Assembly (NCBI RefSeq): GCF_042100115.1
Contig: NC_091276.1
Span: 2,852,001 to 2,916,000, forward strand
Direction: 5' to 3'
Source of the DNA: Alternaria dauci
Lineage: Eukaryota > Ascomycota > Dothideomycetes > Pleosporales > Pleosporaceae
Length of the DNA: 64,000 bases
The first letter of the stretch is position 1. Every line of letters begins with the position of its first letter. Under the pieces are notes generated by a model. That model had not been told where the DNA came from and searched no databases. It worked only from the letters and a program-made list of their open reading frames with translations. Below are positions 19,563-64,000 of this stretch, piece after piece. The position numbers were made by a program, and so were the translations under genes.

Positions 19563-20870
19563 ATACTATAGAGGTAAACAGTACTACTAGTATAGGGTTA
19601 GAGGTAGGATAGTAGCTATAGGGGTCTACCCCTAGGGGTAAGATAGTATCTATAGAGTACTACCCTTAGGGGCGAGATAGTAGCCGTAGAGTGCTACCCC
19701 CGGGGGCGAGATAGTAGCCGTAGAGTGCTGCCCCCAGGGGCGAGATAGTAGGCGCGGGTTGCGGCAAGTTGCTGTAAGTTACTACCCCCGGGGGCGAGAT
19801 AGTAGCCGTAGAGTGCTGCCCCCAGGGGCGAGATAGTAGGCGCGGGTTGCGGCAAGTTGCTGTAAGTTGCTGCCCCTAGGGGCGAGATAGTAGGCGTACA
19901 CGTAGCGCTAATGTTACTGTCGTTATGCTTGGTGAAATGCTGTGTCTGTAGATCTAATGAGTGAAATTGCACCTCCGCCTGTCTACTCTTCGTAGATGGT
20001 GCGTATAGTAGTATCTAGATAGTAGATGTAGAGTGCTGTAAGTTGCTGCCCCCAGGGGCGAGATAGTAGGCGTAGAGTGCTGCCCCCGGGGCGAGATAGT
20101 AGGCATAGAGTGCTGCCCCCGGGGGCGAGATAGTAGCCGTAGAGTGCTACCCCCGGGGGCGAGATAGTAGCCGTAGAGTGCTGCCCCCAGGGGCGAGATA
20201 GTAGCCGTGGAGTGCTGCCCCCAGGGGCGAGATAGTAGCCGTAGAGTGCTGCCCCCAGGGGCGAGATAGTAGCTGTAGAGTGCTGCCCCTAGGGGCGAGA
20301 TAGTAGGCGTAGAGTGCTGCCCCTAGGGGCGAGATAGTAGCCGTAGAGTGCTGCCCCCGGGGGCGAGATAGTAGCCGTAGAGTGCTGCCCCCAGGGGCGA
20401 GATAGTAGGCGCGGGTTGCTGCAAGTTGCTGCAAGTTACTGCCCCCAGGGGCGAGATAGTAGGCGTAGAGTGCTGCCCCCAGGGGCGAGATAGTAGGCGC
20501 GGGTTGCTGCAAGTTACTACAAGTTGCTGCCCCCGGGGGCGAGATAGTAGCCGTAGAGTGCTGCCCCCAGGGGCGAGATAGTAGCCGTAGAGTGCTGCCC
20601 CCGGGGGCGAGATAGTAGCCGTAGAGTGCTGCCCCCAGGGGCGAGATAGTAGGCGCGGGTTGCGGCAAGTTGCTGCCCCTGGGGGCGAGATAGTAGGCGT
20701 AGAGTGCTGCCCCCGGGGGCGAGATAGTAGCCGTAGAGTGCTGCCCCCGGGGGCGAGATAGTAGCCGTAGAGTGCTGCCCCCGGGGGCGAGATAGTAGGC
20801 GTAGAGTGCTGCCCCCAGGGGCGAGATAGTAGCCGCGGATTGCCGTAAGGTGCTGCCCTTGGGGGCGAGA
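19563..20870. repeat. 34-bp GC-rich array, left end of unit 1
   Basis: The unit is about 34 bp: CGAGATAGTAGCCGTAGAGT followed by GCTGCCCCCAGGGG or GCTGCCCCCGGGGG. The central CCCCCGGGGG is a perfect palindrome recurring about every 34 bp. Units are interrupted by inserts carrying GCAAGTTGC and by one 150-bp spacer (19885-20040). The left 100 bases are RIP-mutated; from about 19,690 rightwards units are pristine. Open frames crossing it on the minus strand are a by-product of the stop-free repeat. Confidence 0.85.
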
Positions 20871-21028
20871 GTGACTAACACTCACCGCTAGACTTACAGC
20901 GGCCTATGCAAGAATAGACGGCTTCTCGCCTACTTATACCTTGTGTAGTACCTCTCTATTGCTTTCTTACCTTCTCTTATCTCTTTTCCACTTACCTTAG
21001 TTTCTGTGTTCTTTCTAACAACGTTGCA
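20871..21028 (+). promoter_or_regulatory. Promoter and 5' leader of the ParB-like gene
   Basis: These 158 bases separate the last array unit from the ATG at 21029. The downstream half is a pyrimidine-rich leader (CTTTCTTACCTTCTCTTATC), common in fungal promoters and 5' UTRs. The array therefore ends directly at this promoter. A RIP-mutated copy of its left part lies at about 19500-19560. Confidence 0.45.
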
Positions 21029-23296
21029 ATGAAGCGCCCTCTAGCAAACGTTTTAACCAAAAACAGCAAACGGCAGCGTACGAATGATCCAGAGATTGAA
21101 GAGACAACTCCTATCCACGAACAAGCTGCGCCATACCTACTCGCTATAGCGAAGTTTCCAATCGATGCGCTTAGCGCAGAATGGAGTTTTGGTGTCAATA
21201 GGTCTATTGACACAGCACACCAGCGCCGCCTCTGCGAGATCTTTAACGAAACTGGTATTCTTCGACGAGACCCTAGCCACCAACTGCAGATTGCCTGTTC
21301 TAAGGAACACGTAGAGCAGATGCTTCATCATCTGAAGGTGGAATTGCCAGCTCAGAGCACAGTTACTTCTGCCACGTTTGCGGATAAGGAAGGATTGGAA
21401 TGGCCGTCGTTCAAGAGCTGGAAAAGCGTGACTGGAGGGACAGCGGAACTTATTACGGGTCACCATCGTGTAGAGGCATTCAAAGAGTATCTTCGCCTTC
21501 GGCAGTTAGGAGAAGAGGAGAGGTGGTGGGTGTGCCGCATCTACGATAAAGGCGGGTGCCCCTTAACGCGCGTACTGTGAACAACAGCCCCTAACCTTTT
21601 TAGACACGCTACCACCAGACACTCGTGTTAAACTTCGGGCGAATCGGGCCGATATTACGCTCCCTGACAATCATGGCCAGATATGGTCCGAGTTAACCAG
21701 CCTGTTCTGCACAAACGCCAATCTCTTTCAAGGCTCAAGCAAGTCAGTTGAGAAAGAGATGAGAGAGCATCTTCAGCTTAGTAGCCGCGTCAAGTTCCCA
21801 ATACGGCGGCTAGTTACCCTGTGGAGAAATCAAAACTGGCAGCCCCTGCTTACGCGTTGGTGTTCTACCGCAATTGGGCAGGCAACGTTTAATCTCTCCA
21901 CTTTTGAGTGGATGGCTAGTTGTCGGATAGATGACGTATGTGTAACCCGCCGCCGAAATACTCTGACCTGTCTTGCTAATCTACTGTCTAGCATTGGTTC
22001 GCTGCGTTTGAGAACGTACTTCGCATCTCTACATCTATTCGAAAGCAGTATGGGGTTGACGCCAGTTTAGCAGACTGGAACACGCTAGCTAGCCTGCCCC
22101 AGGCACGAAGTCCCCATGACGTACAAGACCTGTTCTACCCTGGCGAGGAGTTAGACAAGGATCCTGGCCCTTCCCATACGCGCCGGCAGGGCTTCTTCCC
22201 AACTCTAAGCAATGAGGCCTACCATGCGCTATACTCCACTGTACTTTCAAAGCCCACACACACGTACACAAACATCCTCGCTCTCTTAAAAACCCCGAAG
22301 AAAGAGGGGAAGCTTATGAGGAGTATTATGACCCACGTCAGCCAATGGGTAAACAGCGGATCCGCCAAGGTGTCTGACAGCGACAACAACAAACCCGCAC
22401 TGCGGAAGTATCTAGTGCCCGTGCTGCAGAGCAGGCATGCCGGCCAGGCTGATCAAAAATCTCTTGACCTCCAACAAGAAGTACTGCAACACGTACAGCA
22501 AAATGCGGAAGCATTCACAAGCTCTATACTAGACCGCTATATTGACGAGTACCCAAGTGCAGAGATCAAGAACTACGGCGCACGCTTCCAGCATAAGGTG
22601 TGGAGAGAACTGCTGTCAATTGTGACCAGTTTCACAGGGCCAACCTTGCACAACAAGCACTTGGCGTGCCTAATTCAAAGCGATACCTACATAGCGCGAA
22701 CGCCTACAATCGCACAAATCGCGTGTGATGCTATCTGTCAGGTCCCTGAAGTCGTCAACGAACCTGCGCTCCAGTCTACTAGGGCAGCAAACGACTTGCT
22801 AGAGACAATTCAGGTCGCAATCACTGAATGGATGTCTAGACACACTCTAGAAGACTCTGATAATACAAGTCAAGAGGTTCCGCTGCCCGCAAGGCACTCT
22901 AACGCCGAGTCTAGCAGAGAGAGAGAGCTCAATCTGACAGTCTCTGAAGCGGCACGTAGCGTTTCAGCACGGTCGAGTTCGGACCAGCTTACCCCAGAGC
23001 TAATTTCTCACCCCTCAACTGAGCCGCGCATACCCAAGGCATCCCAGCAGACCAAAGTTCAAAACAGGGGGATTGAGGACTTGAGTCTAAGCGACCTTGC
23101 TGCAGCCCGAGAGAAACACCGTCAGAAACGCACCCTTAGCGACCAGGTAGCTGTAAAGGGCAGTGCTTCTCTAAGCGAAAAGACCCGAAAGAAACACCGT
23201 AAGAAACACACCCTTGGCGACCAGGTAGCTGTAGAGGGCAGTGCTTCTCCAAGCGAAAAGACTCGACAGAAACAACGAGGGGCTTGGAGGAAGTAA
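21029..23296 (+). CDS. ParB/Srx-like-domain protein (719 aa, three exons)
   Basis: Exons are 21029-21551, 21604-21935 and 21992-23296. Intron 2 is canonical (donor GTATGT, branch GCTAAT). Intron 1 fits only as a GC-AG intron (21552-21603, branch CCTAAC); it restores the frame so that IYDK is followed by DTLPPDTRVKLRANR. The N-terminal third resembles the ParB/sulfiredoxin fold: LLAIAKFPIDALSAEW and ITGHHRVEAFKEYL (GHHR at about residues 144-147, the position of the ParB GERR-type box). The middle is helical; the C-terminal 200 residues are polar and basic, with a twofold repeat (SDQVAVKGSASLSEKTRKK and a variant). ParB-like proteins bind DNA sites and use CTP, or act as nucleases; which applies here is unknown. 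It precedes the 1245-aa gene on the same strand by 158 bp. Confidence 0.7.
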
Positions 23297-23454
23297 TCCG
23301 TATCTGACCCTAGCCCTAACCCAATAGACACTGTTCCTCTCCTCTTTCCTCTGCACTGGATATTGTGATTCTCGATCATCATCTATCGATCTACCCTACA
23401 AGATCCTCAGCCCTTAGCCAACGTACTATTTTATATAATACTGTTCTTATCATC

Positions 23455-26400
23455 ATGTCTTTAGATCTTGCACAACAAAACGATAGCGATTACGATAACA
23501 GCAGTGCTGGAGAGGAGGACGGCCTGTACCAAGATGTGCAACCTGATGAGCACGATAGAGAACCTGACGAGCATGATGGAGAAGAATACCACGAGAGCAG
23601 CCTTGGGGACGAAGACGCAATAGCGAATAATCAACTTACCTGGGCTATTGACCACAGCGGAGGTGACCACCGACTACCTGGTGAGTTTAAGAGCATCCTA
23701 CTTGTACGCATATAGTAACTACGTAGTAGTGAAGGGATTTATCAAGATGATAGACAGCCCCGAATTTAACGGCAGTAAGGCTATTGGAATGCTGCAGAAG
23801 CGATACACGATAGACTACGGATCGAGGCGCGTTGGGTCCCGACCAGCCAAGCCTGAGGACAAATTTATCCCTGAGTTCCACCTCGACCTTATCATTATCA
23901 TCGGCCGGCCGCTCCAACCCATTGTGAAGTTCTCTACGTTCTTCGACCACGTAACAATCAGCTTTAAACACTGGCGAGCTCCATACAGCGCTAAACACAG
24001 CCACGGACTGTCGTTTGATATGGAGCATCGTACCTTCCGTCTTGCAAAGGGTGGAACGCGCGAATCTTGGTTTATTGTTATGCACCCTGTCGATAGCACA
24101 GTAGACCCTCTTCTGTCAGGCAGCGAACGTCGCAAACGCCGCGAGAAGGCGTCTGAGCACAGCGCTCTCAAACCCTCCCATGCCCTGTTCCTTACGTCGT
24201 ACATTAAGAAAGTCTTCCTTACAGGCGTATTACTTGGAGAGGGTGTTGAGGCTTCTTGGAAATTGGATGGACCCCAGTCGCAATCGATCTCAATCGTCAA
24301 GTGGGAAACGTTCCAGGAGCAGTTCATGGAAGGGTGGCCAGAGTACGTGCGCAAGAACACGCAGGATCCGTTCTGGACTGAGAACCTGCCAGCGTTCCAT
24401 GCGTATGACTACGGGCAGAACCTTCCAATTGAGTTGTCTACTGAGCAACTCAATAGTCTGCCTAAGGAAACCCGGTTGCGCCCTGATGACGAGACGTCTG
24501 ACTCTGATGACGAGACGTCTGACTCTGATGACGAGACGTCTGACTCTGATAGCGAGACGTCTGATTCTGGGAATGATTTGTCAAACTCTGGGAATGATTT
24601 ACCAAACTCTCAGAATGATTTATCTAACTCTGAAGACGCGGCGGCTAGGTCCGAAGGCGGCGCAGAGGGGGCTACGCCCCCACAGAGCGGTACACAAACA
24701 GGCGATCCAATTCCCCCGCCGCACGACCATCAACAGCCGTTTGATAACTACACACAGGATCTTCTACGCGCACTAGAGGACAAGTATAGACTGGAGAGCA
24801 TTGAGACGGTCTCCTACGCGCTAGCGGTCGACATCCACTCAATAGCATCTTCCAACCTCCCTAACGCCTCTAATGACGTCGGTGTCATTCTCGCACCTGC
24901 GCGCTGCCTCCTTGCCAATCGCAACAACGTTGTTCGCCAATACCAACACCCGCGCGACTTTACCTTCTACCCTCTTGCCTTCCATCCATCGTACGGCAAC
25001 TTCTCCTCCGCGCAGCCCCCAGCATTCCTACGCGACAACGTGCTCGCTGTAATGGAGGACAACATGAGCTATCAGAACAACGGTGCGAGCGTGTTGACTA
25101 GTGGTTATTTTCAGGCGTACTCCAACATTAAGCGAACTATACGCCATAGCCCCGGCAACTTACTTGCTACCAAGGGCATTGCCACGGCTGCCCTGACGCT
25201 GCCAGATCAGGATGGCAACCTAAACCCTCGGGTAGCGGCGAAGCGGCAGCGTTTACTGCGGAAATTGCGAGGCGAACAGACTCCTGATAACCCTACGTCT
25301 TCCCAACCGTTCGCTCGCGAGCAACAGCGGATTAAAGCCGCTATAAAGGAAGAACTGTACGCGTTTAGGATGGAGCAAGTTCTGTCTGTGCAGGTGTCGC
25401 AGTTAGCTGACGGTCAACGGAATTTTGCGACAGTGCTTCAACCTATCCTCCAGCTAATCCGGTACTTCTCGCTGGAACAACCTACCTACATTGATGTCCT
25501 CTTCGCGTTCAAAGAACGCATCTTTCCAAAGGTTCTCTCCTCCTTTGCTAGTCTGTTCGCGCACGCATCAGACGAGTTTTATCGTCGCTTCAAGGCTGCT
25601 GGCTCTAAAGGGCTGCCTTTTGCCCTAGCGGAAGGTGTGGCCGCATTCGATCGCCTTGGCAGCTACTGCTTTACTGGGTTCCCCCGGTCTTTAGTGGGCT
25701 CAGTGCTCGGGCCTCTCTGCACCATAGAAAGCATTGAGCAGGGTGGGTGGCCGTTTATCGACCCCAACATGCTCAATCTGCAAGGCAGTGGCCATGCTAA
25801 CCTAGTGCGTTGGCCGCGCATGGACAATGGACGACCTATTATGATGCACGTTGCTTCCATTCGCCACCACTATGGGCCCCAGGTTGCCGCTTATTGTCAC
25901 AGCGAGGTATGGTTCCGTGAGCTTGGTGGGCTCACAGGTAAAGGGCCTCGTGGCGCAGAAGAGTTCCTAGTAGAGGTGCTCGAAGAGATGTGGAAGCCGC
26001 AGACAATCGCTTTCGTAACACACCAATTCTATCGCGCTCTGAACAAGGGCGGACGGGGCAATGCTCAAAGCGTAAGCCTAACAACACTGCAGGCACGACA
26101 GGAGGCGCAAGAGCAGGTGACGCGTTGGGCTGAAAGCGAGCACCCCTTCTCTGCAGGGTTCGTGCAATTAGCGTTTCAAATATCAGCCGCTAACACAGTA
26201 CAGGGAGTACGAGTCGATCTTTCCTGTCTTTTATCCAGAAGCGACTTCGGGTTTGAGAAGCCAGACGCGACGCGACTTTGCGCAAGAGCTCTACTGGGAG
26301 TGTGTTAACAGCCATGGCCAATCTAGTAGCTACCTCTTTTCAAAGAACGCGAGCTGGTTCACTGTGTTACGCGCTGCCGTGCAACACGCCAGGGCCAAGG

Positions 26401-27330
26401 CGATGAAGGAGGAATACTGGATCAGCGCCATAATGTCAGCTCTAGCGGCGTGCCGCATTGACTGTGTGCCTGGTTCATACCATGGCCGATTGAGCTACCG
26501 GAGAATGACGCGGCTAGTCGGTAACGTTCCGGCCCCATCCGCTATAGCGGCGAGACCGGGCAGCCTCAAGCGGGCAGCGATTGAGGCAGTACACCAAGCA
26601 AAGCGGCGCTCGCAAACAAAGAGTACTATCGACTTTGGTTGCCAAATCCCTTTTAACGCCATCCCGCCGCTAGTTGAAAAAGGTTTTCAGCAGTTGGACG
26701 GCCAGTTCTCAAAGTCCGGCATGAATCAGAAGGTTCGTGAACACTACCACAGAGCACGTCAGTGCCTCATCGAGTGCTTAGGTCAGCCAAAATGCGATCT
26801 AATGCTCATGTTGGTGTTAACCCTTGCATCCTCTTCAGCTACCCCTACTGTAGCGGTGAATGCGACTGAGTTTTCCAAAGGACCAACCAAGAACTCTGAA
26901 ATGTTTGCGGCCGCCTTGGTAACAAGAATGCTCTGGTCTCTTCGACCAGATTACTTCCCGTCGGAGGAAGACGATGGTTGGGTGCTTTCGGTACGGGAGA
27001 TGACGAAGAAGATTGGTAAGACTTCCCTAAGAGAGGCCCTTTTCCCAAGTAAGAAGCATTGCTAACATAGTACTATCTGGGGTAGAGCACAAAGGTTGCA
27101 ACAACCGCTTCCTTCGACAACTGCAATGGATTCGGGTTACTAGTGGGCGTCGAGACTCCCCAAGGAACAGCGACATAGCGATCAACTATGATTCCGTTCT
27201 TGAGAAGAGACGTACAGAGTTAATGCGACTACGGAGCGATGCTAAAGGTTTTATTCAATGCGTGTTTGGTAGTTCTGATTATGCATGGGTTGACCGATGT
27301 CATACTATTATACAGGAGTCCCCAGTGTAG
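23455..27330 (+). CDS. Large protein of unknown function (1245 aa, four exons)
   Basis: Exons are 23455-23680, 23727-26161, 26199-27015 and 27071-27330. Intron 1 has GTGAGT; its acceptor could also be 3 bases downstream. Intron 3 has GTAAGA, branch GCTAAC and ATAG. Intron 2 is only 37 nt and is the least certain, but it joins the frames cleanly. Start MSLDLAQQNDSD is the first ATG giving an open exon 1. Residues 1-75 are acidic. Around residues 330-375 lies a tandem DDETSDSD acidic repeat, then N/S-rich repeats. The rest is globular, with patches such as LAPARCLLANRNNVVRQY, HPRDFTFYPLAFHPSYGNF and IRHHYGPQVAAYCHSEVWF. I recall similar uncharacterised proteins in dothideomycetes but no named domain. 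Its placement behind the ParB-like gene suggests a joint role. Confidence 0.65.
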
Positions 27331-28098
27331 AGTAAGCTATTATAGCTTCCACTATAATTTTACATCTTCTCTCCTATAAAACACGTATATACTATATACA
27401 TCTTCTATCCTATACAGCTTTTGAAGAGATTAATACACGTTACGTAGTGTTATGATTTTTTAAAATATTTCGTATTAACTGTAAATTCAGAAAAACACCA
27501 ACCCCAATATTAACCGTACTATCGTTGTCGCATGTAATCCGTTTCTTAATCTTAACTGTGTCTCTTCTCTACTATTTACATAATTAACGTAATAGTAAAA
27601 AGACGCAGGCACTAGAGAATAGAGCCTGCGAAGTCTACATTGCATTAGTGGCTGAAGTAGCACAGTGTAGAGGCATCCTGTTACTATTCTCCGCAGGCAA
27701 AGGTAATAGCACCTTGCGCGGCAACCTTTAAGGAAAAGAGAGGAAGCCGCTATGTGTTTCGCTCTTCTTTGTAGTTATTTGTAGATTTGTAGCCTGCGGT
27801 GTTGTTGACTTATCTGTATCGCAATACGACAGCAGCTTCCTAGCAGGCTGTAATCGTCGAGAGCCACGGTACAGCCGGTGACTTAGACGACAGACCTAGC
27901 CTAACACTAAATTGGCAAGCTTCCGCAACACGGACGCATACACCCCACCTGCTAATAAGCACCGCTATGACTAGCAACTCTCGTCTACCTCACTACTTCC
28001 GTAGAGTGTCGCTAGAAGCTCAGCATTGTGCTCTTCGAGCCCATCACTCTTTTTCCGCAGCGCATAGTTCAGGGTCGTCAGGTAACCCGGTTTATTGT
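27331..28098. other. Convergent 3' intergenic region with a hairpin
   Basis: This lies between two convergent genes, so it should hold both terminator regions. A stem-loop at about 27602-27636 has arms GCAGGC and GCCTGC extended by AGAC/GTCT. The bases TAAAAAGACGCAGGCAC at about 27596 resemble TAAAAGACGCAAGCAC at about 42250, behind the UPF1-like gene, so this may be a shared 3' element. No open frame worth calling. Confidence 0.4.
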
Positions 28099-29961
28099 TC
28101 AACCTATAGGGCTTACAGGACAGAATAATTCAAGTACCGACATCTGTCGCAATGGCGCCGGCGATGCCGGGATACTTTCCGATGCGTCAGAATCAGTGTC
28201 ATCTTCGGCTTCGCTGTCTGGAATCTCTGTTAACCCCACCGCCGTAGCTAGCGCATTCGCTTCAATGCTAAGCCTCTCCTTTCCAGCAATCGGCGCACCA
28301 GTAATTCCATCCGGCCCTAGCCAGGCTTCGAGGGCCCTGCTTGCCGTGCAAATTTCCGGCCGTTCGCGCTTCACTAGCTCAAGAAAAACATCGCGCTGGT
28401 TCTTCCGCAGCACACGCTCGAGCCAATGGTTTGAGACCTCTTCGTGGGGTATGAGCAGCAGCGATCCCCAGCCTAGAGCTTGAACTATGTCGAACCATCG
28501 TGTCGCTCGCTTTAGGCGGTAACGAAAGGCTGCGTGGTCAGATTTAGATGGTGATTGGCAAACCAGATGGACCAAATATGTGATAGCCTCTGTTCGTGCC
28601 TGGCCCTTCCCGTACCTGTTGCGAGTTCTGTCGTTACTGGCTAGACGATCAGCGACCTGGATTTCGTCGACCTTGCGAGCGTACGCCTTCCCTAGCAAAG
28701 CGAAAGCCCAGCGAGTGCCAATGTTTACAGCTGCAAGCATCGTCTCGTACCGTGTGCACATGTCCCAGGCAAAGCAGAATGCATTGTCGGCATCAGTATG
28801 AAGTGTTGCGCTACTATCCACTGACTGCGACATTTGCGTCTGGGTAAGAACATAACGATCTACTGGTTTTACCAAGAACGGCGTGCCCTGTTTCCGCCAA
28901 TTATGCAGGAACTGCGCAGCGCTGTACTGCGAGGTTGCATTTCCAAAAGCACGCGCTTTTGCTAGCATGCTGCAGGCAGTATAGTAGGGTGTTGGCGAGG
29001 CTGTATAGAAATCAGCATCTTCCGCGACTTTTTGCTTGAAGATCCAAGAGATCGTCGGCTCATCGTCTGGCGCAATGCTGCCGTACGCCATACGTTCCTG
29101 CGCAGGCATCTTCTCAGGCGGTTCCTTTAAGCCTATCGCCTCGAGCTTTATTACACGCGATCTTTCTAGCTTTCTTGTACGCCGTAGCTCTGCAAGACGA
29201 TTCTTGTTTGTAACTGTTGCGGACCTCTTTACGGATAGAGGCGTCGTCGCACTCTGGTTTTCGCTGTCCTCGTCGCTTGTTCCGCGCTCGTGTCCCCCCT
29301 CCGCTCTAGCTGTGTCTTTGCCAGCGTGTACTGTCATAGTGTTGACTTCGCTAGCCCTAGCCGTCGATTCGTCCGCGCTGTCCTCCTGTATTGCTAGGCG
29401 GTTTAAGCTGTTGGCACGGATCTCGCTGCGAATAGGCGATGAGGAGGCTGGACGTTTACGGTACGGCACAAGGTCGCCTGTAGCCCTCTGTGCTGATGGC
29501 GGTATGCTATCGTCCTTGTCTGAGTCTATAGCCATGCGGTCCTCCGCGATGCCTTCCGTTGGCGTCATTAGCCGCGCTGTAGTTAAGTTTCTAGGCTCTA
29601 GAGACTTACTACTAGCAAAGTCCATAGCAGCGCTTGTGAGACGCCCCCAATTTTCTGCGTCAAGTGTGCTGGCACCCAGCGTCTCTTTCAGCAGCCATAT
29701 CGCATCTAGTGTCGAGTGGGCTATGAAAACCGGCTTGCACGCTTCGTCGTCGCCTACTTCTGGAACGATCCATCCCGCGTATCGTACATCGCCTGGTACA
29801 CGGCATGGTTCTGCGAGACGACGCGCAAGAAATCTGCTGTAGGACGGGTTAGGTGGGCTGTATGCTAAGTTGTTAGCGACTGTAGCGTCCCACTGTGCAG
29901 GAAAGCCTCTTCCGCTGTGTTTATCCTGACAATGGTCACTATCGAGCTGTAACTGATCCAT
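28099..29961 (-). CDS. Protein of unknown function (620 aa, single exon)
   Basis: One uninterrupted frame on the minus strand starts MDQLQLDSDHCQDKHSG. Residues 20-125 look globular (YSRFLARRLAEPCRVPG, YAGWIVPEVGDDEACKP). Residues 130-270 are low-complexity S/T/E/D, including a possible nuclear signal (PYRKRPASSSP) and a basic helix (NRLAELRRTRKLERSRVIKL). Residues 290-560 are helical and globular (YTACSMLAKARAFG, WFDIVQALGWGSLLLI). The tail is acidic (DSEAEDDTDSDASES), ending LELFCPVSPIG. No domain recognised. It converges on the 1245-aa gene. Base composition and reading are as clean as in the neighbouring helicase genes, which supports a real gene. Confidence 0.7.
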   Translation of the reverse strand: MDQLQLDSDHCQDKHSGRGFPAQWDATVANNLAYSPPNPSYSRFLARRLAEPCRVPGDVRYAGWIVPEVGDDEACKPVFIAHSTLDAIWLLKETLGASTLDAENWGRLTSAAMDFASSKSLEPRNLTTARLMTPTEGIAEDRMAIDSDKDDSIPPSAQRATGDLVPYRKRPASSSPIRSEIRANSLNRLAIQEDSADESTARASEVNTMTVHAGKDTARAEGGHERGTSDEDSENQSATTPLSVKRSATVTNKNRLAELRRTRKLERSRVIKLEAIGLKEPPEKMPAQERMAYGSIAPDDEPTISWIFKQKVAEDADFYTASPTPYYTACSMLAKARAFGNATSQYSAAQFLHNWRKQGTPFLVKPVDRYVLTQTQMSQSVDSSATLHTDADNAFCFAWDMCTRYETMLAAVNIGTRWAFALLGKAYARKVDEIQVADRLASNDRTRNRYGKGQARTEAITYLVHLVCQSPSKSDHAAFRYRLKRATRWFDIVQALGWGSLLLIPHEEVSNHWLERVLRKNQRDVFLELVKRERPEICTASRALEAWLGPDGITGAPIAGKERLSIEANALATAVGLTEIPDSEAEDDTDSDASESIPASPAPLRQMSVLELFCPVSPIG

Positions 29962-30404: not shown

Positions 30405-30405
30405 A

Positions 30406-54892: not shown

Positions 54893-55335
54893 TTTAGAAC
54901 CAAGGCTGACGCTCTAAGCCAGCGATTAGTGTGTGGGTAGAAAAGTAGTAAGAATAACAGCAGAGAAAAGAAGACGTGGCATGGAAAGCAGGGGGCCAGG
55001 GCGTGCCGGCAAGGTGCGGCATATAGTCGCACCGACTAACAAGGTAGAGTACGGTCCCTAATCCCAGAAGAGGTCGCGTCCTTGAGTGTAGAATACATGT
55101 TATTTCTCTTTTTAGAGTGCTATTCTTATATAATATTGAATACTAAAGTTTAGTTGTTGAAGACACGAAAGATCTCAAAGAGGTAGTCCTAGATAGGGAG
55201 GGTCGCTCTGCCTCGTACATCTAAGAGCGCAGTTCCAAATAATATAACACTAGTATTTGCCTTTAGAGGTGCAGCGTGAAGAAGGTTGGAGCGCCAGCCC
55301 TAAGGTAGTTAAAGCGTCCGAATGTTCCAGCTGCA

Positions 55336-56315
55336 AGGTTGCGATATGGCTTGGGACGCAAGTTGCCGCAACGGTTGGTTGCCAGCGAGGGCAAGTTACG
55401 CAGAGACCACGGTATGGCTTCATACACCTACTAACACCTTTTGGGCAACTCTCTGGACTGTCCAAGGTACTGCATGACAGAGTTGTCAACAATCAAGCCA
55501 ATCAAGCTGGGTGCCCCAGCTTAGCTTGATTAGTGGGTACCTCTACCTCAGCTTAGCTTGATTGGCTTGATGGTTAAAATTAATAAGCTTGGCTTGTTTA
55601 GCTTGATTAGCTTAACAAAATTAATCCCCCTTTCAAGAAGCTTAAAAGGGGATAGTGTAGGGGTATCCTTATATAATCTTATCACCACGTGATCTTATCA
55701 CCACGTGACCTTACTTACTTACTTTAACCTTCTTTATAGAGTATTAATTCTATCAAGCCAATCAAGCCAAACAATCAAGCTAGCTTATAGTAGCTTGGCT
55801 TAATTGATTTATACCTCTACTCTAGCTTAGCTTGATTGATACGCCAGCTTGATGCCCCAGCTTGATAGCGATCAAGCTGGCTTGATTGTTGACAAGTCTG
55901 CTGCATGAACAGACGGTTGTTGAACCAATGAACAAACTGATTCCTAATGGTTGTCGCTGTAGAGAAAACGTCGAGGTAGGCAGTATACTCAGTCCTGGAC
56001 GGCACGCTGGGACTCTGCCTTGGCCACTGGTTCCTCAGATCTTCCACGAACGAGTCGATCGCCCTAGTTTGATTCTCCTGAAATGCGGCGTGCAATCCTG
56101 TCGTGATGCTGCTGTTCAGTCTCCGATTCTCGCTTTGGTAGATTCGCTTCATTGGAATCTGCAAACGCCTTGGTGTTGCACAGCACCGTGTTCCGAATCG
56201 CATTCTTGTTGAAGTCCTGTCCCTGGTCTAGCTCGTATTTCAGTGCAGTAGGTGGCTGTACCGCCGAGAGCTTATATACCCTATAGGCTGCAGCTAGAGC
56301 CTGTATCGCATCCAT
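55336..56315 (-). pseudogene. Small broken gene, copy 2
   Basis: Carries the same frame change, MITE insertion and two adjacent TAG codons as the copy at 30405-31384, so the damage was already present before the tandem duplication. A single 68-bp unit again overlaps its far end. Confidence 0.55.
55478..55900. mobile_element. hAT-type MITE, copy 2
   Basis: Same 423-bp element as at 30547, flanked by CTGCATGA at 55470-55477 and 55901-55908. It was copied with the unit and is not an independent insertion. Confidence 0.88.
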
Positions 56316-56363
56316 GTCTGACTTTTCGGCGTAAGCCGTCGTACAAAACTATGTCATTAGATC

Positions 56364-56771
56364 ACGATATGGCTTGGGAAGCAAGTTGCCGCAACGGTTG
56401 GTTGCTAGCGAGGGCACGTTGCGAAGCGGTTGCGATATGGCTTGGGACGCAAGTTGCCGCAACGGTTGGTTGCTAGCGAGGGCACGTTGCGAAGCGGTTG
56501 CGATATGGCTTGGGACGCAAGTTGCCGCAACGGTTGGTTGCTAGCGAGGGCACGTTGCGAAGCGGTTGCGATATGGCTTGGGACGCAAGTTGCCGCAACG
56601 GTTGGTTGCTAGCGAGGGCACGTTGCGAAGCGGTTGCGATATGGCTTGGGACGCAAGTTGCCGCAACGGTTGGTTGCTAGCGAGGGCACGTTGCGAAGCG
56701 GTTGCGATATGGCTTGGGACGCAAGTTGCCGCAACGGTTGGTTGCTAGCGAGGGCACATTGCGAAGCGGTT
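56364..56771 (+). repeat. 68-bp tandem array, copy 2 (six units)
   Basis: Same unit, same copy number and same variant bases (first unit GGGAAGCAAG, last unit GGGCACATTG) as at 31433-31840. Confidence 0.9.
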
Positions 56772-57090
56772 GCGAAGCATGGAGTAGTATTTAGTGTGGT
56801 AGGTTGCATTCGGCCTGACTCGGAAGACCACGCGCCCGCAAGTCAGGCTGACAGCAGCGCTTCCACTCACAACGTTACCTAGGTACAGCAGTAACTTGCT
56901 ATTGCTAACAGAGGCAACTTTCTAGGCTTCCTACAGTGGCAGCAGTAGGCAATACGTACAGCGTTACTCTATGTTAGTCTGGTGCGCCTATATCGGTATT
57001 GAGTCATGGGATCGATTTTGTACTACAGACTACTTGAGAAAGTTACAGTATGTCTCCGCGATTTCCGGGCAGTCATTCCTTCAAAGTATC

Positions 57091-60000
57091 TCAGTCTTGC
57101 GCCTTTATCGTGCTCTGAAAATAGCCTTTAGCTTGGAGGTTCTTGACTATCCTCATGTCAATGGTGTCTCGGCATCCTTGAGGGGCAGTAGTTGTCAGCC
57201 ATTCAACGAAGACTTCGGCGAACCTCGTATTAATGCGATGTTGGCGTTTCGCAGCCTGTTCAGCAATATGCGCGTTACTCTGAGGCTCAAGACCATGCAA
57301 GATGTTGCCCTCTGTAAGCGATATTGACTGACACATCGCGCCCGTTGCACCCACGAGAATATAGACGCCATCGTCGACCTTGCCGCCCCCCTCATCCCAG
57401 ACCTTCTTCCACTTGGGTACTTCCTTGTCCCGTGTCACGGCGTTGTAGGCATGAACAACGTGTTTCTCTCCAAACGTTTGGCAGATGTAAGCGTAGATCA
57501 GAGCACGTGACAATGTCGAGCTCGCGAGTACGACGTACTTGGCTCTGTACTCTAGGGTTTCTCCTTGGTGTGCGCGAGGACGGGGATGGGGAATGGTCGT
57601 CTTCTTGTTGCGTAGCTCTTCCAACGTCTTGTGAATGTATGCGACCTTGGCTGAGCCCTTGCAAGCCTCCAATGCAATGTCCCAGATGAATGAGTGTCGA
57701 ATTGTGTCGCTGTTCACAAGAGCTGTGCGGAGGTTTTCGTTGTTATTACTGAGACTGCGGTGAGGGTCGAGGATCCGATCTCCGATAAGCTGGTCGGCAT
57801 CCCAATTGTTGATTGCGGCCATAAGGTTAGGAAAGATGCTGACATGTCGCGCAATGCGGTAGGCCTCGGAGTCTGCGACTGCGCCTGGGGGCATGGTGGG
57901 CTTGGACTTCTTGCTGCTCTCTCCCCCTTGGTCTTCCCAGGCCTCCACTTCCTTCTCGTAATGCTGTTTGACCGCGGCTAGCACGCGAGACTCTTCTTGT
58001 TCCACGTTAGCGAAGTAACACGCATCGTGCTGCAGATACGTGAAGTTGACAGTAAGCTTTGCTGTGACAACGTTGAGGGGTTTGCGCCAGGGATCCAGAC
58101 TGTCGGTGTCGCGCATTATGAAACACCACCGAACCATGTCCCGAAAATTGTTCAGCATGTCCTTGATCTCGCCGGACTGGAGTTGCTTGTCGAGCGCGGA
58201 CTGTACTTTGTTCTTTTCCTTCTCGGTTTTACAACGCTGCATCCCGTCGTGATACTTCTTGTAGCTATTGAGGAGCTTTCTCCACACTGCAGTACAATCT
58301 ACCCCTTTCAAATTGGCTAAAGCTTTGGCGCCTGGATCGGTGGACTGCTTTTGTACTAACCGCTGGATCACGTGGTCGGCGAATCCTAACACCAGGTCGA
58401 CCCCGTTCGTGAGAGCTGTGCCCGTCTGACCTACTATACCAGTACGATGATCATTGGGCCTGTAGTCCAAAATGGGGTCGATGATGTGGGTGTAGGTTTG
58501 AGTTTTTGTACCCGGGGCGGTATGCAGCTCGTCGACCATGATTATTGCAGCGCAACCAACGAATGTGACCAACCACACCTCGACCCTCACACCTTTGTCG
58601 TCTGTCCATATTTGCATGCGACGAGCCTGCCAAGGGCCGAGACCATCAAGCGCAGGCAATCGTGAAGTGTCCATATGCGTCTTGGCGCACAGGCTCAGCT
58701 GTGCTCTCAACGCCGCCCTCTTCTTAGTATGCCTCTTGTCGGTCTTTTCTAACTGTTGTTTTAGCCTCTTGTACTGAGGGGGCGCAGAGGTATCGACAAG
58801 CGTGCCAAAGATCTTCGTCTTCCAAGACTCGCGAGTTGAGACTATCAAGAACCTAACGCTCGTCTTTTGAGGTCTGAAGTCCGATGTCTCAGGGACGCTG
58901 TTTGCCCATTCCTTAGTCGGGTTGTTCAACTTCCACACCTTGTTGTACTCCCCATAGGCCAATCGTGATTTCAACCAGTTAGGGCGACGGTTGACTTCAT
59001 CCCACTCTTTTGGTGTCATGCTAGAGTAGATGCTGTTCTTCGCACCGCCATAACGCTGTACAATCTCTTCGCCCGTACCGTGCAAGACTATCAGCTTCGG
59101 TGGCTTGTACTCTGATCCTTGAGCCAAGTGGGCGCTGCCACCCATGATCATACGCCATGCTTGTACCAATGTTTCAAGGCCTGCTGCACTCGCAACAAAG
59201 TAGGTGCATCCAAACAGATTCGGCGTCTCTATCTCGTCTCCGTTCGATTTGAGAGCAGTGTAGGGGAAGTCTGGCGTCGCGCTGATGCCGAGGCGCTGGT
59301 ACGATCTAGCAAAATTGAGATACCATATGAGGACATCGGTGATCGTCTTGCCCATGCCCATGTCGTCGGCGATGACAAGTGCTCCTCGGTCGCCGGCGAG
59401 GACATCCAAGCCATCCTTGGCGCCGACCAACTGATGGGGTAGCGGGTGGAAATCTGGGTTTAAGCCGACCCCAGTTCCGAGGTTGATCTGGTCGCCTTTG
59501 AGGTCGTCGAGCGCAAGGCCGAAGGTTTGCGCGGCTAAGTCCCACAAGTCTATGTTCGACTTTTGCGCGTGCGCAAAAGCAGACATACCATCCATCTTCA
59601 CCTTCATAGTGCTCGAGAAATGCGCGTTTGCCTGGGTCTTAGCTTGTTCGTTCAATGGGGGTTGTTCCGGTTCGCCTTCGTCTAACATGCATTCTTCTAG
59701 CACCTCTTCATCGTCTACGAGAATGTCCATGTTGTTACTAGACTCGCTGTCACTAGAATCGCTGCTACCACTATCGTCGCTGATATGTATTGGGTCGTCT
59801 AGTCCGCTACCGTGGTAGCTATTAGAAGGGAAGGTCTCGACAAACTTGAGAAAGGACTTAGGTGCGCTGGACGGTGGTTTGGCAGGTCTGGCGAGCGGTA
59901 GCAGATTCACGGGTGTGAACGACGAGGGTTGAAGTGTGCGGGGGAAGGCGATGCTGTTATTCCTGGACATGTATGACGAGAACGGACCTACAGGATGCTG

Positions 60001-61596
60001 CTTGTGTGCGCTGTTGCTAGGTGTGGATTCTTCCCTCGACCAGGATAATGGATGTATGTTGGCCGCCAAATCTAGTATCTCCTTGAGTGTCTTGGGTGTA
60101 AGCTCCTTACTTTCCGGTGGGACGGCTTCGGAGGAGGCAACTTGCATGTGGGTGGCATCTTGTTGCTGGTCACCTTGCACCTCTGCTGGCGGGGCGGGCT
60201 CGGAGGAGGCAACTTGCATGTGGGTGGCATCTTGTTGCTGACCATCTTGCACCTCTGCTGGCGGGGCGGGCTCGGAGGAGGCAACTTGCATGTGGGTGGC
60301 ATCTTGTTGCTGGTCACCTTGCACCTCTGCTGGCGGGGCGGGCTCGGAGGAGGCAACTTGCATGTGGGTGGCATCTTGTTGCTGACCATCTTGCACCTCT
60401 GCTGGCGGGGCGGGCTCGGAGGAGGCAACTTGCATGTGGGTGGCATCTTGTTGCTGGTCACCTTGCACCTCTGCTGGCGGGGCGGGCTCGGAGGAGGCAA
60501 CTTGCATGTGGGTGGCATCTTGTTGCTGACCATCTTGCACCTCTGCTGGCGGGGCGGGCTCGGAGGAGGCAACTTGCATGTGGGTGGCATCTTGTTGCTG
60601 GTCACCTTGCACCTCTGCTGGCGGGGCGGGCTCGGAGGAGGCAACTTGCATGTGGGTGGCATCTTGTTGCTGACCATCTTGCACCTCTGCTGGCGGGACG
60701 ACTTTGGAGGAGGCAACTTGCGTGTCGGTTACGTTCAATCTAACCGTCGTGACAAACACTACGGCTGTGCCAGCTGGGATTTCTCGCATAGCAAAGTTGA
60801 ATCCACCTTGGCTTCCAATTCCGATATGCTGATTTGCTCTTGGAGCGATAAACAAGCGGCCCTTGAAGTCGAATCCATCGAGTCCTAGGCCTTGCGCAGT
60901 TTCGTAGCATTGCTCAGCTTCGTCGCGTAGTTTTTCCCAGTTGGGGATGCCCTCCCAACATATGTCACTGAATTCGACCATGCTGACTACTTCGCTGATC
61001 TCTCCATCCTTTACGGCGCATATATGTACCTGTGTGTCGAGATTTGAAGCGGTTGGCATGGGAGGATTAGCAGGCTTGTCGTTGTTCGGAGTAGGCGTGA
61101 ATCCTGTAGGAACGGTTCTGGATCGAGAGCGCTTAGGTGGGTGGTCTTTGGAGTTGTGCGTTGATTCTGGCGATAACTCGCGCTTTTGGAGTGTAGAGGT
61201 TGCCGTCAAGGGGTTGGGGGTTGGGGCTTTAGCATGGTCGCCTTCCGCTTTACGCTTCCTCAGGCGATTGAGAGAATGTGTGATCAACTTGCTAATCGCC
61301 ATTGTCCTCCACGCCTTGGGTTCGTTGCGGAAGTCGGGTACGGACTTCCAGACCAGGGCGTGTAGGTTCTTGTTCAGGTCTTCATTGGCAGTGTCGCTGA
61401 GCTTTGCTGCACCTCGATTGCGTGCATCGGGGTAGTTGTCCACAAGAATCTTGTCAATCGTCCTGGCTATCTCCTTTTGTCTGGTGGCGTCGTCGATGCC
61501 GAAGCCGCGGAAGATCTCTGTTTGGTTCCCCGAGTAGCTAAGGGAGCTGGGGTCGCCTGCCGGTGGATGGGCGGGTGACTGCGTGTTATCGTCCAT
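57091..61596 (-). CDS. SNF2-like helicase/translocase, copy 2 (1501 aa)
   Basis: As at 32160-36521, but with eight instead of six ATHMQVASSE-containing units (60117-60720), a gain or loss of exactly 144 bp (two 24-residue units, or one alternating pair). All helicase motifs are identical to copy 1. Confidence 0.85.
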   Translation of the reverse strand: MDDNTQSPAHPPAGDPSSLSYSGNQTEIFRGFGIDDATRQKEIARTIDKILVDNYPDARNRGAAKLSDTANEDLNKNLHALVWKSVPDFRNEPKAWRTMAISKLITHSLNRLRKRKAEGDHAKAPTPNPLTATSTLQKRELSPESTHNSKDHPPKRSRSRTVPTGFTPTPNNDKPANPPMPTASNLDTQVHICAVKDGEISEVVSMVEFSDICWEGIPNWEKLRDEAEQCYETAQGLGLDGFDFKGRLFIAPRANQHIGIGSQGGFNFAMREIPAGTAVVFVTTVRLNVTDTQVASSKVVPPAEVQDGQQQDATHMQVASSEPAPPAEVQGDQQQDATHMQVASSEPAPPAEVQDGQQQDATHMQVASSEPAPPAEVQGDQQQDATHMQVASSEPAPPAEVQDGQQQDATHMQVASSEPAPPAEVQGDQQQDATHMQVASSEPAPPAEVQDGQQQDATHMQVASSEPAPPAEVQGDQQQDATHMQVASSEAVPPESKELTPKTLKEILDLAANIHPLSWSREESTPSNSAHKQHPVGPFSSYMSRNNSIAFPRTLQPSSFTPVNLLPLARPAKPPSSAPKSFLKFVETFPSNSYHGSGLDDPIHISDDSGSSDSSDSESSNNMDILVDDEEVLEECMLDEGEPEQPPLNEQAKTQANAHFSSTMKVKMDGMSAFAHAQKSNIDLWDLAAQTFGLALDDLKGDQINLGTGVGLNPDFHPLPHQLVGAKDGLDVLAGDRGALVIADDMGMGKTITDVLIWYLNFARSYQRLGISATPDFPYTALKSNGDEIETPNLFGCTYFVASAAGLETLVQAWRMIMGGSAHLAQGSEYKPPKLIVLHGTGEEIVQRYGGAKNSIYSSMTPKEWDEVNRRPNWLKSRLAYGEYNKVWKLNNPTKEWANSVPETSDFRPQKTSVRFLIVSTRESWKTKIFGTLVDTSAPPQYKRLKQQLEKTDKRHTKKRAALRAQLSLCAKTHMDTSRLPALDGLGPWQARRMQIWTDDKGVRVEVWLVTFVGCAAIIMVDELHTAPGTKTQTYTHIIDPILDYRPNDHRTGIVGQTGTALTNGVDLVLGFADHVIQRLVQKQSTDPGAKALANLKGVDCTAVWRKLLNSYKKYHDGMQRCKTEKEKNKVQSALDKQLQSGEIKDMLNNFRDMVRWCFIMRDTDSLDPWRKPLNVVTAKLTVNFTYLQHDACYFANVEQEESRVLAAVKQHYEKEVEAWEDQGGESSKKSKPTMPPGAVADSEAYRIARHVSIFPNLMAAINNWDADQLIGDRILDPHRSLSNNNENLRTALVNSDTIRHSFIWDIALEACKGSAKVAYIHKTLEELRNKKTTIPHPRPRAHQGETLEYRAKYVVLASSTLSRALIYAYICQTFGEKHVVHAYNAVTRDKEVPKWKKVWDEGGGKVDDGVYILVGATGAMCQSISLTEGNILHGLEPQSNAHIAEQAAKRQHRINTRFAEVFVEWLTTTAPQGCRDTIDMRIVKNLQAKGYFQSTIKAQD

Positions 61597-62706
61597 CCTA
61601 GTCACCCGTGGTAGAAGGTGTATGCAGGTTGACGATGCTGCGGTACGTGGTGGGTGGGTGGTGTTGCGGCGAGCGTCGCAACGTTCGTGTTGTGGCAACA
61701 TGCGCGAGGAAACAGCCGGAGAGCGGTGAAAAGTGAAAGGGGAAGCTCCCAGTAATTTTAGCCTCGTCGCCCGTACTGAGCCTAGTAGAACGATGACCAG
61801 GAGTAGGGCATAGTATAGCCACCCGGTTCTGGCGTGAGCGCTCACTGTTGAGCATTGCGGGTACAGCGCACAAGACTCTGACGCGGGCTCACGTTGCGTA
61901 CGCGCGAAACAGAGAAAGTTGATAAAAGATATGGGGATCACCCGAGTGTATAGAAAGCGAGCAGAGGGAGAAGAGAGACAAGGAGCAGGGAAAGTAGGGA
62001 GAGACATGGGGATCACCCAAACGCAGTTCTGGCCGTCATCGTGAACTGAATCGAGCATAGAAGTTGATAGAACCAAACAAAAGAAAGCGAAAAGAGATAT
62101 GGGGATCACCCAGCCGTAGGACTAACTGTAGTCGCGAAGGAGAGAGCCAAGACGTAGCCGGCTACACGCTGCGCATTGCTGTGGCCTTGACGCTCGCTAG
62201 ATCTCCCATTCACCTTGGCATGTCCTCGCTTATTTGTATGGCCGGTCCGATAGTTATCTTCCTATTGCCCAAAGGTCGACTGGCTGTCCACTTCTGTCTC
62301 TTGGTACCAACTTGTAGAACTCGGGTGATCCCCATATCCTCTTCGCGTCCCTATCGTTCTCCATCCAATCCTTCTTTTCACGTGTCTTTATCTTGCTCCT
62401 CGCTTCCTCACGCACAACCCAAGGTGAGCAACGCAAAATTTGCTTGGCGTTAGCGTCTCTCGCGCTCGCGCTACCTAGTCCTGCACAAATAACACTTTCC
62501 TCCACACCAACTACTTGACACCTTCCCCGAATTGCTTCTCTTGAAAGCAAACCACTCTCAACGTCGATATCTCTACCTACCCATTGACCCTTGTCGGTAA
62601 GTTGTTGTGGCCTCCTGTTCCGCTGATCGATTGCTAACGATGTGCTGTCCGTATAGAAACAAAGTCTCACCTACCGTTGAAACTCTGTTTTTGCATATCG
62701 TCCAGC
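61597..62706. promoter_or_regulatory. Bidirectional helicase promoter, copy 2
   Basis: The four GGGGATCACCC-type motifs lie at 61928-61943, 62003-62018, 62096-62111 and, inverted, 62323-62338. The putative 5'-UTR intron of the UPF1-like gene is 62597-62656. Confidence 0.6.
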
Positions 62707-64000
62707 ATGGCCGACCAGTCTGTCATGCACTACATGGTCAATGACCGGCCGACGTCGGCGCCGCATGATACAGAAGTCTACGACCAGGGCATTGCTGTCT
62801 TGGAGGCACCCGGCAAAGACTCTGTCCAGCTCGGAGGCCTTCCCGACGCCCCTGACCGAGAGAAGCACGCCTGCTTCACCTGCAAAGAACCAGGCCACAG
62901 GGCCAAAGATTGCCCCAAGAAGCTCGAACAGCAAGCGTGTTCCAACTGCGGCGAGGTTGGCCATGTCTACCGCGACTGTCCCACGAACGAGTGCTTCAAC
63001 TGCGGTGGTCACGGGCACCTCTCCAAGCAATGCCCTAGTGAGCCAGCAGCAGACCAGGGCCCTAGGTGCAACGGCTGTAACCGTCTCGGCCACGTTGCCT
63101 CGGATTGCTTCTATCCCCAGCCGATCAAAACCCGCAAGTTTCGTGCTCCTAAGGAGGACGCCTCCAAGGAGGACGTCTCCAAGGAGGACGTCTCCAAGGA
63201 TGGCAAAGACGAGCTTCCTCCTGCCCAAACCATGGCCCCACCACTGGATAAACCTAGCTTCACAACAAAGTTATTCACTCGGAAGATCCCTCACTATGTC
63301 TCCTCCGTTAGTGTAGAGATGGATATTTCCTATCCGAGCGACGACGCTAGTATCACCCTCCGTGGCCACGCTCATCGGGCAGCCTCCATTACCCTGACAG
63401 CCCACAACATCGTCAACTGCACTGTACTTCCCATGAAGATCACCGATGAGTTCTTCACCTCAAGGGTTTCCCAAGAAGATGTTAAGCGAGCTGCTAGTAA
63501 GCTTGCACTCAGCGAACTAGGGATGCTCCTACACTTCCGCTTCGACCTCCAAACCGAACAACCTGACGGACAACCTCTGAACTCCCGCCCCCTCTACGGA
63601 TTGGGGTTCTTCTCCCACCAGAACTTTGGGATCTTCGATGAAGTCATCCATCGTGCTCGCGATATCCTCGAGAATGGCGGCGAGGGCACCGTGCTGCACT
63701 TCTTCACGGTCGCCACAGAGTCAGCACAAGAGCGCATGGATACCGTGTACAAAGAGATGCAAGCTCAATACAAGAACGACCCGATTCTGCTCTACTGGAA
63801 GGACTGTCGTGTCAACCCTCAGACTGGCATGGAGATCTCTGTCGACAAGCAGCCGAAAGGATTCAAGGTCCCTCCCCAGTGGGCATTCCAGAACAACACA
63901 CAGTACGTCACCGTGCACTACCAGAACCTTGTCCACGAACTGCGCAAGGCCGCCAAGCAGAAGGGTTTCGAGATCACCGACACCAAGATTATGAAGGTTC
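62707..64000 (+). CDS. UPF1-like zinc-knuckle helicase, copy 2, cut by the window end
   Basis: The first 431 codons of the second copy are present, including all four CCHC zinc knuckles, and are identical to copy 1. The helicase motifs lie beyond the window. Confidence 0.85.
   Translation, partial: MADQSVMHYMVNDRPTSAPHDTEVYDQGIAVLEAPGKDSVQLGGLPDAPDREKHACFTCKEPGHRAKDCPKKLEQQACSNCGEVGHVYRDCPTNECFNCGGHGHLSKQCPSEPAADQGPRCNGCNRLGHVASDCFYPQPIKTRKFRAPKEDASKEDVSKEDVSKDGKDELPPAQTMAPPLDKPSFTTKLFTRKIPHYVSSVSVEMDISYPSDDASITLRGHAHRAASITLTAHNIVNCTVLPMKITDEFFTSRVSQEDVKRAASKLALSELGMLLHFRFDLQTEQPDGQPLNSRPLYGLGFFSHQNFGIFDEVIHRARDILENGGEGTVLHFFTVATESAQERMDTVYKEMQAQYKNDPILLYWKDCRVNPQTGMEISVDKQPKGFKVPPQWAFQNNTQYVTVHYQNLVHELRKAAKQKGFEITDTKIMKV

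Follow-up and report, generated by a model that had tools for sequence, protein, structure and literature searches.

The 64-kb stretch of Alternaria dauci DNA analysed here (the window; C5:2852001-2916000), which leads to the right end of contig 5 in this carrot-blight fungus, carries head-to-tail units of a 25.1-kb multi-gene repeat that is probably a telomere-terminal mobile DNA element. Its fixed proximal end would attach to an ATA of an eroded chromosome end, the element would supply a new telomere, and recombination would mix the arrays so formed. At the joints where this can be tested, the unit forms the end of the chromosome and is not embedded within it. The original prediction, made from the letters of the window, had proposed a head-to-tail tandem of a 25.1-kb multi-gene unit; the tandem is real, and its scope proved far wider, extending genome-wide.

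Within the window, self-comparison gave 0 mismatches at an offset of 24,931 over 20800-35300 and at an offset of 25,075 over 35560-38925, with concordant self-BLAST results. The shift in offset falls within a coding minisatellite (35197-35654 versus 60128-60729), of which the second copy holds two extra 72-bp units. The genome analysed was one A. dauci assembly of 34,901,638 bases in 10 contigs, whose left and right ends are labelled C5L and C5R for contig 5, and so on. Across it, a census detected 36 copies of the unit in arrays of one to six, occupying 19 of the 20 chromosome ends and totalling ~0.9 Mb at ~25 kb each. The numbers per end are C1L 1, C1R 4, C2L 1, C2R 2, C3L 1, C3R 4, C4L 6, C4R 1, C5L 1, C5R 3, C6L 1, C6R 2, C7L 1, C7R 0, C8L 1, C8R 3, C9L 1, C9R 1, C10L 1 and C10R 1, the exact number in long arrays being uncertain. 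The one end without a unit, C7R, belongs to a contig that stops inside ribosomal DNA (rDNA), with an 18S rRNA gene within the last 4 kb of C7, in agreement with the rDNA reported at the chromosome 7 end for Alternaria in excerpts of an earlier paper (PMC13068351).

All 36 units sit in terminal arrays, and a 1.5-kb probe of the unit gave 33 matches genome-wide, every one of them in a terminal array and all at 100%. Gene B (genes are lettered as in Table 1) occurs in 36 copies and gene C in 34 complete copies plus two cut by contig ends, and a gene-A probe gave 37 near-identical matches (the 36 units and an inverted fragment past the C9L telomere) together with two diverged relics. Three units, at C2R, C5R and C6R, are incomplete because the contig stops within them. 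The gene set thus recurs at other loci and in other copy numbers, as the original prediction had suggested checking, in this one genome. Away from the array, ~56 kb proximal of the window, C5:2795912-2796028 holds a weak B-like match, a diverged fragment of 39 aa at 59%.

Proximal joints and chromosome tips

Searching the whole genome with an 18-base pattern at no more than one mismatch detected 41 left (proximal) ends, including those of all 36 units, and none in a reversed-pattern control; all 41 flanks were inspected. The joint reads ATA^CTATAGAGG throughout (^ marks the joint here and below), with a single exception that has G in place of the first C. ATA precedes the left end in 41/41 cases against a background frequency of 0.054, and bases -4 to -10 are mixed. 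Grouped at 70% identity over 50 bases, the flanks form 28 classes: nine left ends lie in the 18-bp array, five at one spot of the AT-rich tail, two in the 34-bp array, and 25 are singletons. The flanks comprise various sites within a shared subtelomeric domain, chromosomal DNA of other kinds, older units killed by repeat-induced point mutation (RIP), and the preceding unit's tail or arrays. Among the 28 classes, C2L and C8R are joined at nearly one spot and may derive from a single copied event.

Each of the 36 B-bearing units is paired with its own exact left end, and therefore no live unit is truncated proximally; the preceding units beneath attached ones end at variable points. Five left ends are surplus: two are short, truncated starts (one at C4L, one at C9R), and the other three belong to relics at C8 (51 kb), C1 (56 kb) and window position 18966. 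Runs of two or more TTAGGG were found at 0/41 junctions in up to 400 bases before the joint. By eye, the native sequence itself supplies ATA in the 18-bp array (CCCTAAATA^ACTAAG), in the AT tail (AATAATA^GTATAC and CTAATAATA^TTATAAG) and in the 34-bp array (AAGATA^GTAGCC). The C4L_105k joint, native only for AT, is the sole clear AT-only case; C2L was dropped as another, since by comparison with C8R it could represent that end's joint plus a 5-bp CTATA duplication.

These joints bear directly on the view that the unit is a passive subtelomeric repeat, moved by host recombination alone (break- or telomere-attrition-induced replication, rolling or unequal exchange), with proteins that are passengers or mildly helpful. 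Simple subtelomeric homogenisation was our initial idea; it lost ground once the same exact left edge was seen at flanks of many kinds. If copying relied on homology or microhomology, it should begin at many places in the donor, whereas 36/36 units begin at the same base, and that one base joins 28 flank classes, including different points of one shared domain. Tandem amplification at tips has been reported in Pyricularia oryzae, which lends host recombination a precedent, but the arrays described in the available text retain telomere tracts between copies (PMC8381367), in contrast to the junctions here. We therefore consider this explanation unlikely. The original prediction had offered a replicating or recombination-amplified unit; because one exact edge joins 28 flank classes, the repeat is not merely recombination-amplified, being telomere-terminal with an exact proximal end and a near-constant end on the telomere side, and its units do also recombine, as described below.

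At the tips, the order is unit, AT-rich tail, 18-bp array, GCTGTAACCG and TTAGGG, and tip units have ~370 bp of additional tail ahead of the 18-bp array. The telomere was read at 16 ends, and at 15 of these the array ends in GCTGTAACCG directly before TTAGGG; C2L is the exception, with GCTG in that place. An extra G follows GCTGTAACCG at C5L and lies inside the first telomere repeat at C10R. Separately, at the C3L and C6L tips (L011, L014) two and three telomere runs, respectively, alternate with the 18-bp array as internalised telomere tracts.

The unit is also seen to terminate the chromosome where its targets survive uninterrupted elsewhere. Just proximal of the elements, seven ends have in common a subtelomeric domain at 76-100% identity (C5:25427-25860 and six other places on C2, C3, C8 (two), C9 and C10); the C5L flank, once considered unique, was placed in this domain by search. 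Attachment points run outward along it from C5L to C8L, ~2.8 kb on, then C9L, C10L, C8R/C2L and C3R. The C5L target is intact as AAGGATA^TGTCTTAG in C8R and AAGGATA^TATCTTAG in C3R, with 5.3-5.6 kb kept; the C8L target as CCCTAATA^TGATCT in C8R and CCCTGATA^TGATCT in C3R, with 2.5-2.8 kb kept; and the C8R target as CAATATA^CTATTAGG in C3R. Past the unit at C5L and C8L there are only tail, array and telomere, and the continuation of the target is gone. C9R has two left ends 236 bp apart, the second joined in the 34-bp array of the first, with one unit beyond; C4L has two left ends 114 bp apart, with six units beyond and no remainder of a seventh. At all four ends the target continuation is missing distal of the element. 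Such nested and stub joints are marks of terminal attachment rather than insertion, although distal DNA may also have been lost later.

An ordinary transposon that inserts near chromosome ends at AT or ATA, and whose distal target is lost later via tip homogenisation, would account for the ATA being mostly native on the target side (in the 18-bp array, the tail, the 34-bp array and the domain at C5L, C8L and C8R), much like a short target or core site. However, neither a distal flank nor a target duplication was seen at the tips read, the target continuation is gone at C9R, C4L, C5L and C8L, and the units are confined to terminal arrays, so that we hold such insertion to be improbable.

Some contig ends look misjoined. 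At C9L (L017, C9:1-10000) an inverted piece of the unit lies past the left telomere, where the gene-A probe matches C9:1059-2561 on the opposite strand; this is either a chimeric read or a real end fusion. About 119.5 kb follows the telomere at C3R (L021, C3:3316987-3326986, from ~8708), starting with a cytochrome-b-like frame by eye in translation table 4, and is probably mitochondrial DNA misjoined in the assembly; ~21 kb of non-element sequence from the telomere to the contig end at C4R (L022, C4:3414342-3424341, from ~7198) is a probable misjoin. At C3R and C4R we placed the chromosome end at the telomere and treated the sequence after it as misjoined. Despite these three ends and the uncertain unit counts of long arrays, an assembly artefact, or an integrated virus or plasmid concatemer, is highly improbable as an explanation of the repeat. 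An assembly doubling, which the original prediction had named among its possible refutations, does not fit 36 units at 19/20 ends with different flanks, array lengths, telomeres and private RIP haplotypes. Regarding a virus or plasmid, no viral structural family was among the Pfam matches of the open reading frames (ORFs), and a structure model of a gene B homologue had no viral match at E <= 0.001.

Decay, exchange and the mode of spread

Older copies of the element lie further in from the chromosome end than younger ones. The relic in the window is broken off at CTACTTATA, where live unit 1 attaches; by eye, this break matches CGCCTACTTATA^CCTTGTG, in RIP-mutated form, from the gene A leader (~20927-20945). 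Another diverged relic, near C3:3194 kb, was overlooked by the pattern and likewise begins ATA^CTATAGAAGTAAATAG. Over 2,303 aligned columns the C8 relic carries 623 substitutions relative to a live unit; 593 are C>T or G>A, with 295/302 CpA and 229/254 CpG sites mutated. The relics show that the element is old and has been hit by RIP, and at C1L, C3R, C5R and C8L they are internal, with fresh units outside.

Live copies of genes B, E and F show light, apparently recent RIP; A. dauci is not known to have a sexual stage. In two live B copies, picked because they carry stops, the substitutions are RIP-type in 12/12 and 2/2 cases, all in CpA/TpG context. Over a 3.2-kb segment of gene F in 19 units (one per element-bearing end), 22/22 substitutions are C>T or G>A, and 11/19 segments are identical to that of the window. 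One F haplotype of four changes is common to C6L, C10L, C3R and C8R, and another change to C5L, C2R and C9R. Stops occur in B in 7/36 live units, in E in 6/32 scored, in F in 5/32 scored and in C in 0/34. In a manual table of ten units, B copies with and without stops each occur alongside both of two E length classes, giving all four combinations (one of them in a single unit), which indicates that units also recombine. Such mosaic haplotypes, the RIP haplotypes common to ends with different flanks, the proximal domain common to several ends and the possibly copied C2L/C8R joint are what host recombination alone would lead one to expect.

Several observations weigh against terminal attachment by the element's own machinery. 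Where ATA would be expected at C9L and C10L, related ends read GTA/GTG and GCG/GTG, which RIP of these flanks before attachment could explain. The uninterrupted targets are paralogous ends of one genome rather than the same locus in another strain, and the missing distal target could stem from later end exchange. No nuclease, recombinase or transposase was recognised among the unit proteins. RIP-type stops in B, E and F of arrayed units imply movement in trans or by recombination, and host recombination could lie behind tandem growth and unit identity.

A telomere-terminal mobile element nevertheless remains the explanation we favour, and it could operate as follows. A worn or cut chromosome end would be resected to AT or ATA, and the resulting 3' end would be coupled by an element-encoded nicking or joining activity to a unit's left terminus, carried by another chromosome or by a circle. 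The SF1 (superfamily 1; gene F) and SF2 (superfamily 2; gene E) helicases would assist, perhaps with protein A or B, and copying would proceed through 25 kb to the telomere, amounting to one-ended, replicative end capture. Repeats of this process on capped chromosomes would generate head-to-tail arrays with variable right truncation and no left truncation of live units. Ordinary recombination between near-identical units would then spread, expand and mix the arrays, with RIP killing the older, more internal units.

More tentatively, and with somewhat less than even confidence, we propose that the unit represents a novel class of selfish DNA, existing solely as chromosome ends, and that end capture is carried out by machinery of its own, namely the F and E helicases together with an unrecognised nuclease encoded by A, B or C. 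We rate the element as new as an entity; its mechanism is only probable. If correct, this would be a new way of mobilising DNA and of repairing or replacing telomeres (no RT [reverse transcriptase], captain or Rep being recognised and the recipient's distal DNA being gone), and the element would be transposon, subtelomere and telomere-repair device in one. It makes testable whether helicase-bearing subtelomeric repeats are passive or self-moving, and its exact ends, RIP dating and private haplotypes offer a marked system for tracking the turnover of chromosome ends.

Genes and layout of the unit

The features of the window are collected in Table 1. The unit has no match to window positions 1-18960, and an Rfam scan of the window returned nothing. 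A third left end at C5:2921749 starts unit 3. The proximal flank holds a 486-bp repeat pair at 92% (window 646-1131 and 7376-7861) and a reverse-transcriptase fragment with a stop (window 4008-4493; C5:2856008-2856493).

Table 1. Positions of the element and its parts in the window
Feature	Position	Strand	Remarks
Truncated, RIP-mutated relic of older unit	18966..19565	+	own left end ATA^CTATAGAGGTAAATAG at 18966; remnants of 34-bp array
ATA at attachment of unit 1	19563..19565	+	
Unit 1	19566..44673	+	25,108 bp, from exact left end to attachment point of unit 2
34-bp minisatellite, left side of unit	20044..20835	+	CCCCC(A/G)GGGG near-palindromes; copy 2 at 44854-45766
Gene A	21029..23296	+	ParB-like by GHHRVEA motif only; likely introns 21530-21587 (uncertain) and 21936-21991
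Gene B	23455..27330	+	1,236 aa after removal of introns 23681-23729, 26158-26203 and 27016-27085 (own splice model)
Gene C	28099..29961	-	620 aa; open in all 34 complete copies
136-aa ORF	30886..31296	-	where a small gene had been predicted; gene status unsupported
68-bp minisatellite	31434..31844		6 copies; copy 2 at 56365-56775
Gene E	32160..36521	-	1,453 aa; SNF2-like SF2 helicase; motifs by eye DMGMGKT, DELH, GQTGTALTNG, QAAKRQHRI
In-frame coding minisatellite of gene E	35197..35654	-	72 bp = 24 codons; length varies between units
Gene F	37632..42038	+	1,468 aa; four CCHC knuckles, UPF1-type SF1 helicase, acidic coding repeats
In-frame coding minisatellites, C-terminus of gene F	41468..41955	+	69 and 51 bp; length varies; most units stay open
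22-bp minisatellite	42594..43587	+	AT content rises towards distal side
AT-rich, RIP-like tail of unit 1	43600..44673	+	
ATA at attachment of unit 2, in unit 1 tail	44671..44673	+	native tail continues AATAATA^GTATAC
Unit 2	44674..64000	+	gene order as unit 1; cut by window end, runs on to C5:2921748

The cargo predicted for the unit stands for genes A, B, C, E and F; the small gene listed with them is unsupported, there being only a 136-aa ORF, which had no family match over cut-off. The prediction of a subtelomeric repeat unit that encodes DNA-handling proteins is likewise supported. Its statement that all comparable proteins of the two copies are identical does not hold strictly: the SNF2-like open frames are 1,628 and 1,676 aa long, a difference of 48 aa. 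The minisatellites of E and F differ in length among units, with the frame mostly kept open.

Gene A contains the GHHRVEA motif, and no family matched it above its cut-off (DUF3723 reaching 13.6 bits versus a cut-off of 22); its single-sequence fold, at a mean pLDDT (predicted local distance difference test) of 35.7, was too poor for use. The ParB-like label is thus a motif reading. Gene C had no match in Pfam, NCBIfam or PHROG.

The gene predicted to encode a 1245-aa protein is present as gene B and is slightly shorter in our splice model. It gave 192 database matches at E <= 0.001, two being A. dauci's own, and the relatives among the 120 matches listed include sequences of Fusarium, Trichoderma, Metarhizium and Pyrenochaeta and many further contigs. 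Gene B is 54% identical to one homologue (P0020) over residues 5-1233; this homologue had no Pfam match, and its structure model had no recognisable known fold. Members of the family (P0003-P0122) reach ~1,300 aa and have many invariant residues, those scanned had no Pfam match, and no homologue was confirmed in viral_contigs. On sequence similarity, gene B falls in a large and conserved family of fungal proteins that has no Pfam entry and to which the element draws attention.

Gene E matched the PHROG family phrog_62 (DNA helicase, E 7e-8); it had no Pfam match, and a PDB sequence search was empty. Gene F has the helicase motifs GPGGVGKT, HDEAGK, TVDKMQGAEK and VGRARSLLVIVGN and matched AAA_12 (3.6e-27), zf-CCHC (1.6e-18) and AAA_11 in Pfam. 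Its database search gave two matches, the one meaningful match being a Curvularia clavata protein that aligns in two blocks spanning residues 1 to 1221 at 31% and 39%. For gene E, no homologue was found at E <= 0.001 among 7,993 scored candidates, in a search for both genes that was word-limited and that also failed to detect A. dauci's own E and F (perhaps unannotated), so that absence counts for little here.

Comparison with known systems

Starships carry a DUF3435 tyrosine-recombinase captain at one end. The A. dauci unit resembles them as a large multi-gene fungal DNA element and in the sub-threshold DUF3723 resemblance of gene A, but it differs in the lack of a captain, in its confinement to chromosome ends and in having the telomere as its far end. 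Flanks on both sides, a Starship trait, are absent: there is a left flank only, with the 18-bp array and TTAGGG distally at the 16 telomeres read. Searches of all units with DUF3435 and RVT_1 supported the prediction that the cargo contains neither a captain nor an RT. The three DUF3435 matches in the genome all belong to one stop-riddled locus (C5:127859-129179), with none in the 36 units or ORFs.

The Y' elements of yeast spread by recombination at shared repeats and have telomere repeats between tandem copies, and the telomere-linked helicases of fungi are of RecQ type. Like these repeats, the A. dauci unit is a multi-copy subtelomeric unit with a helicase ORF and minisatellites; unlike them, it has an exact edge at many kinds of flank and TTAGGG runs at 0/41 junctions. 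Neither a RecQ nor a DEAD domain was found in the unit proteins by Pfam (F being AAA_11/AAA_12 and E without a match). Co-localisation of telomere-linked helicase (TLH) genes is described in excerpts of a study of FoTeR elements (PMC12857005).

Terminal mobile arrays have so far been known for reverse-transcribing elements. HeT-A, TART and TAHRE are non-LTR (non-long terminal repeat) retrotransposons that form telomere arrays in Drosophila and replace telomerase. They resemble the A. dauci arrays in head-to-tail order at the tip, a proximal joint that is exact, underlying units that are truncated distally to varying extents, and repeated terminal addition, and this trait of retrotransposon arrays is present here as 36/36 exact left ends over variably truncated units. 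They differ in being retrotransposons with an RT, whereas the A. dauci unit has no RT match and ends in TTAGGG telomeres; of the 112 RVT_1 matches counted in the genome, none of the listed places is inside a unit, and none is in the ORFs. MoTeR and FoTeR elements, according to the available text, are likewise fungal and at chromosome ends, MoTeRs being tandem and FoTeR having minisatellites and RIP-hit copies (PMC8381367, PMC12857005). In contrast to these RT-encoding elements, which have telomere repeats at their flanks and measure 4.3-7.3 kb in the case of FoTeR, the A. dauci unit comprises 25 kb of genes without an RT match and has no telomere repeats at its left junction.

Among the titles and abstract openings searched, with most subscription papers and preprints outside that scope, no paper describing the element was found. 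The main text of the Alternaria telomere-to-telomere paper, as far as available, is without the words 'tandem' or 'helicase' (PMC13068351), and the A. dauci genome paper presents a fragmented assembly, with telomeres unmentioned in the available portion (PMC9114375).

A search for the Helitron Rep with Helitron_like_N gave one genome match, which lies outside the units at C4:158979-159260; an HUH domain too divergent for the sensitivity of Pfam may have escaped it. The matching fragment sits ~3 kb from the C4 left array, on its inner side. Helitrons have a host A^T target and 5' TC and 3' CTRR ends. Joints with clear native sequence can be read as A^T with the element starting TACTATAG; TC and CTRR ends were not seen. 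In Oscheius tipulae, Helitron-like elements with a helicase are described on 11/12 telomere extensions, and their Pif1-type helicase and nuclease domain contrast with the UPF1-type and SNF2-like helicases of the A. dauci unit (PMC8022731). Going by the accessible portion of that report, the Helitron-like element of the Oscheius telomere extensions is the nearest DNA-element parallel to the unit described here (PMC8022731).

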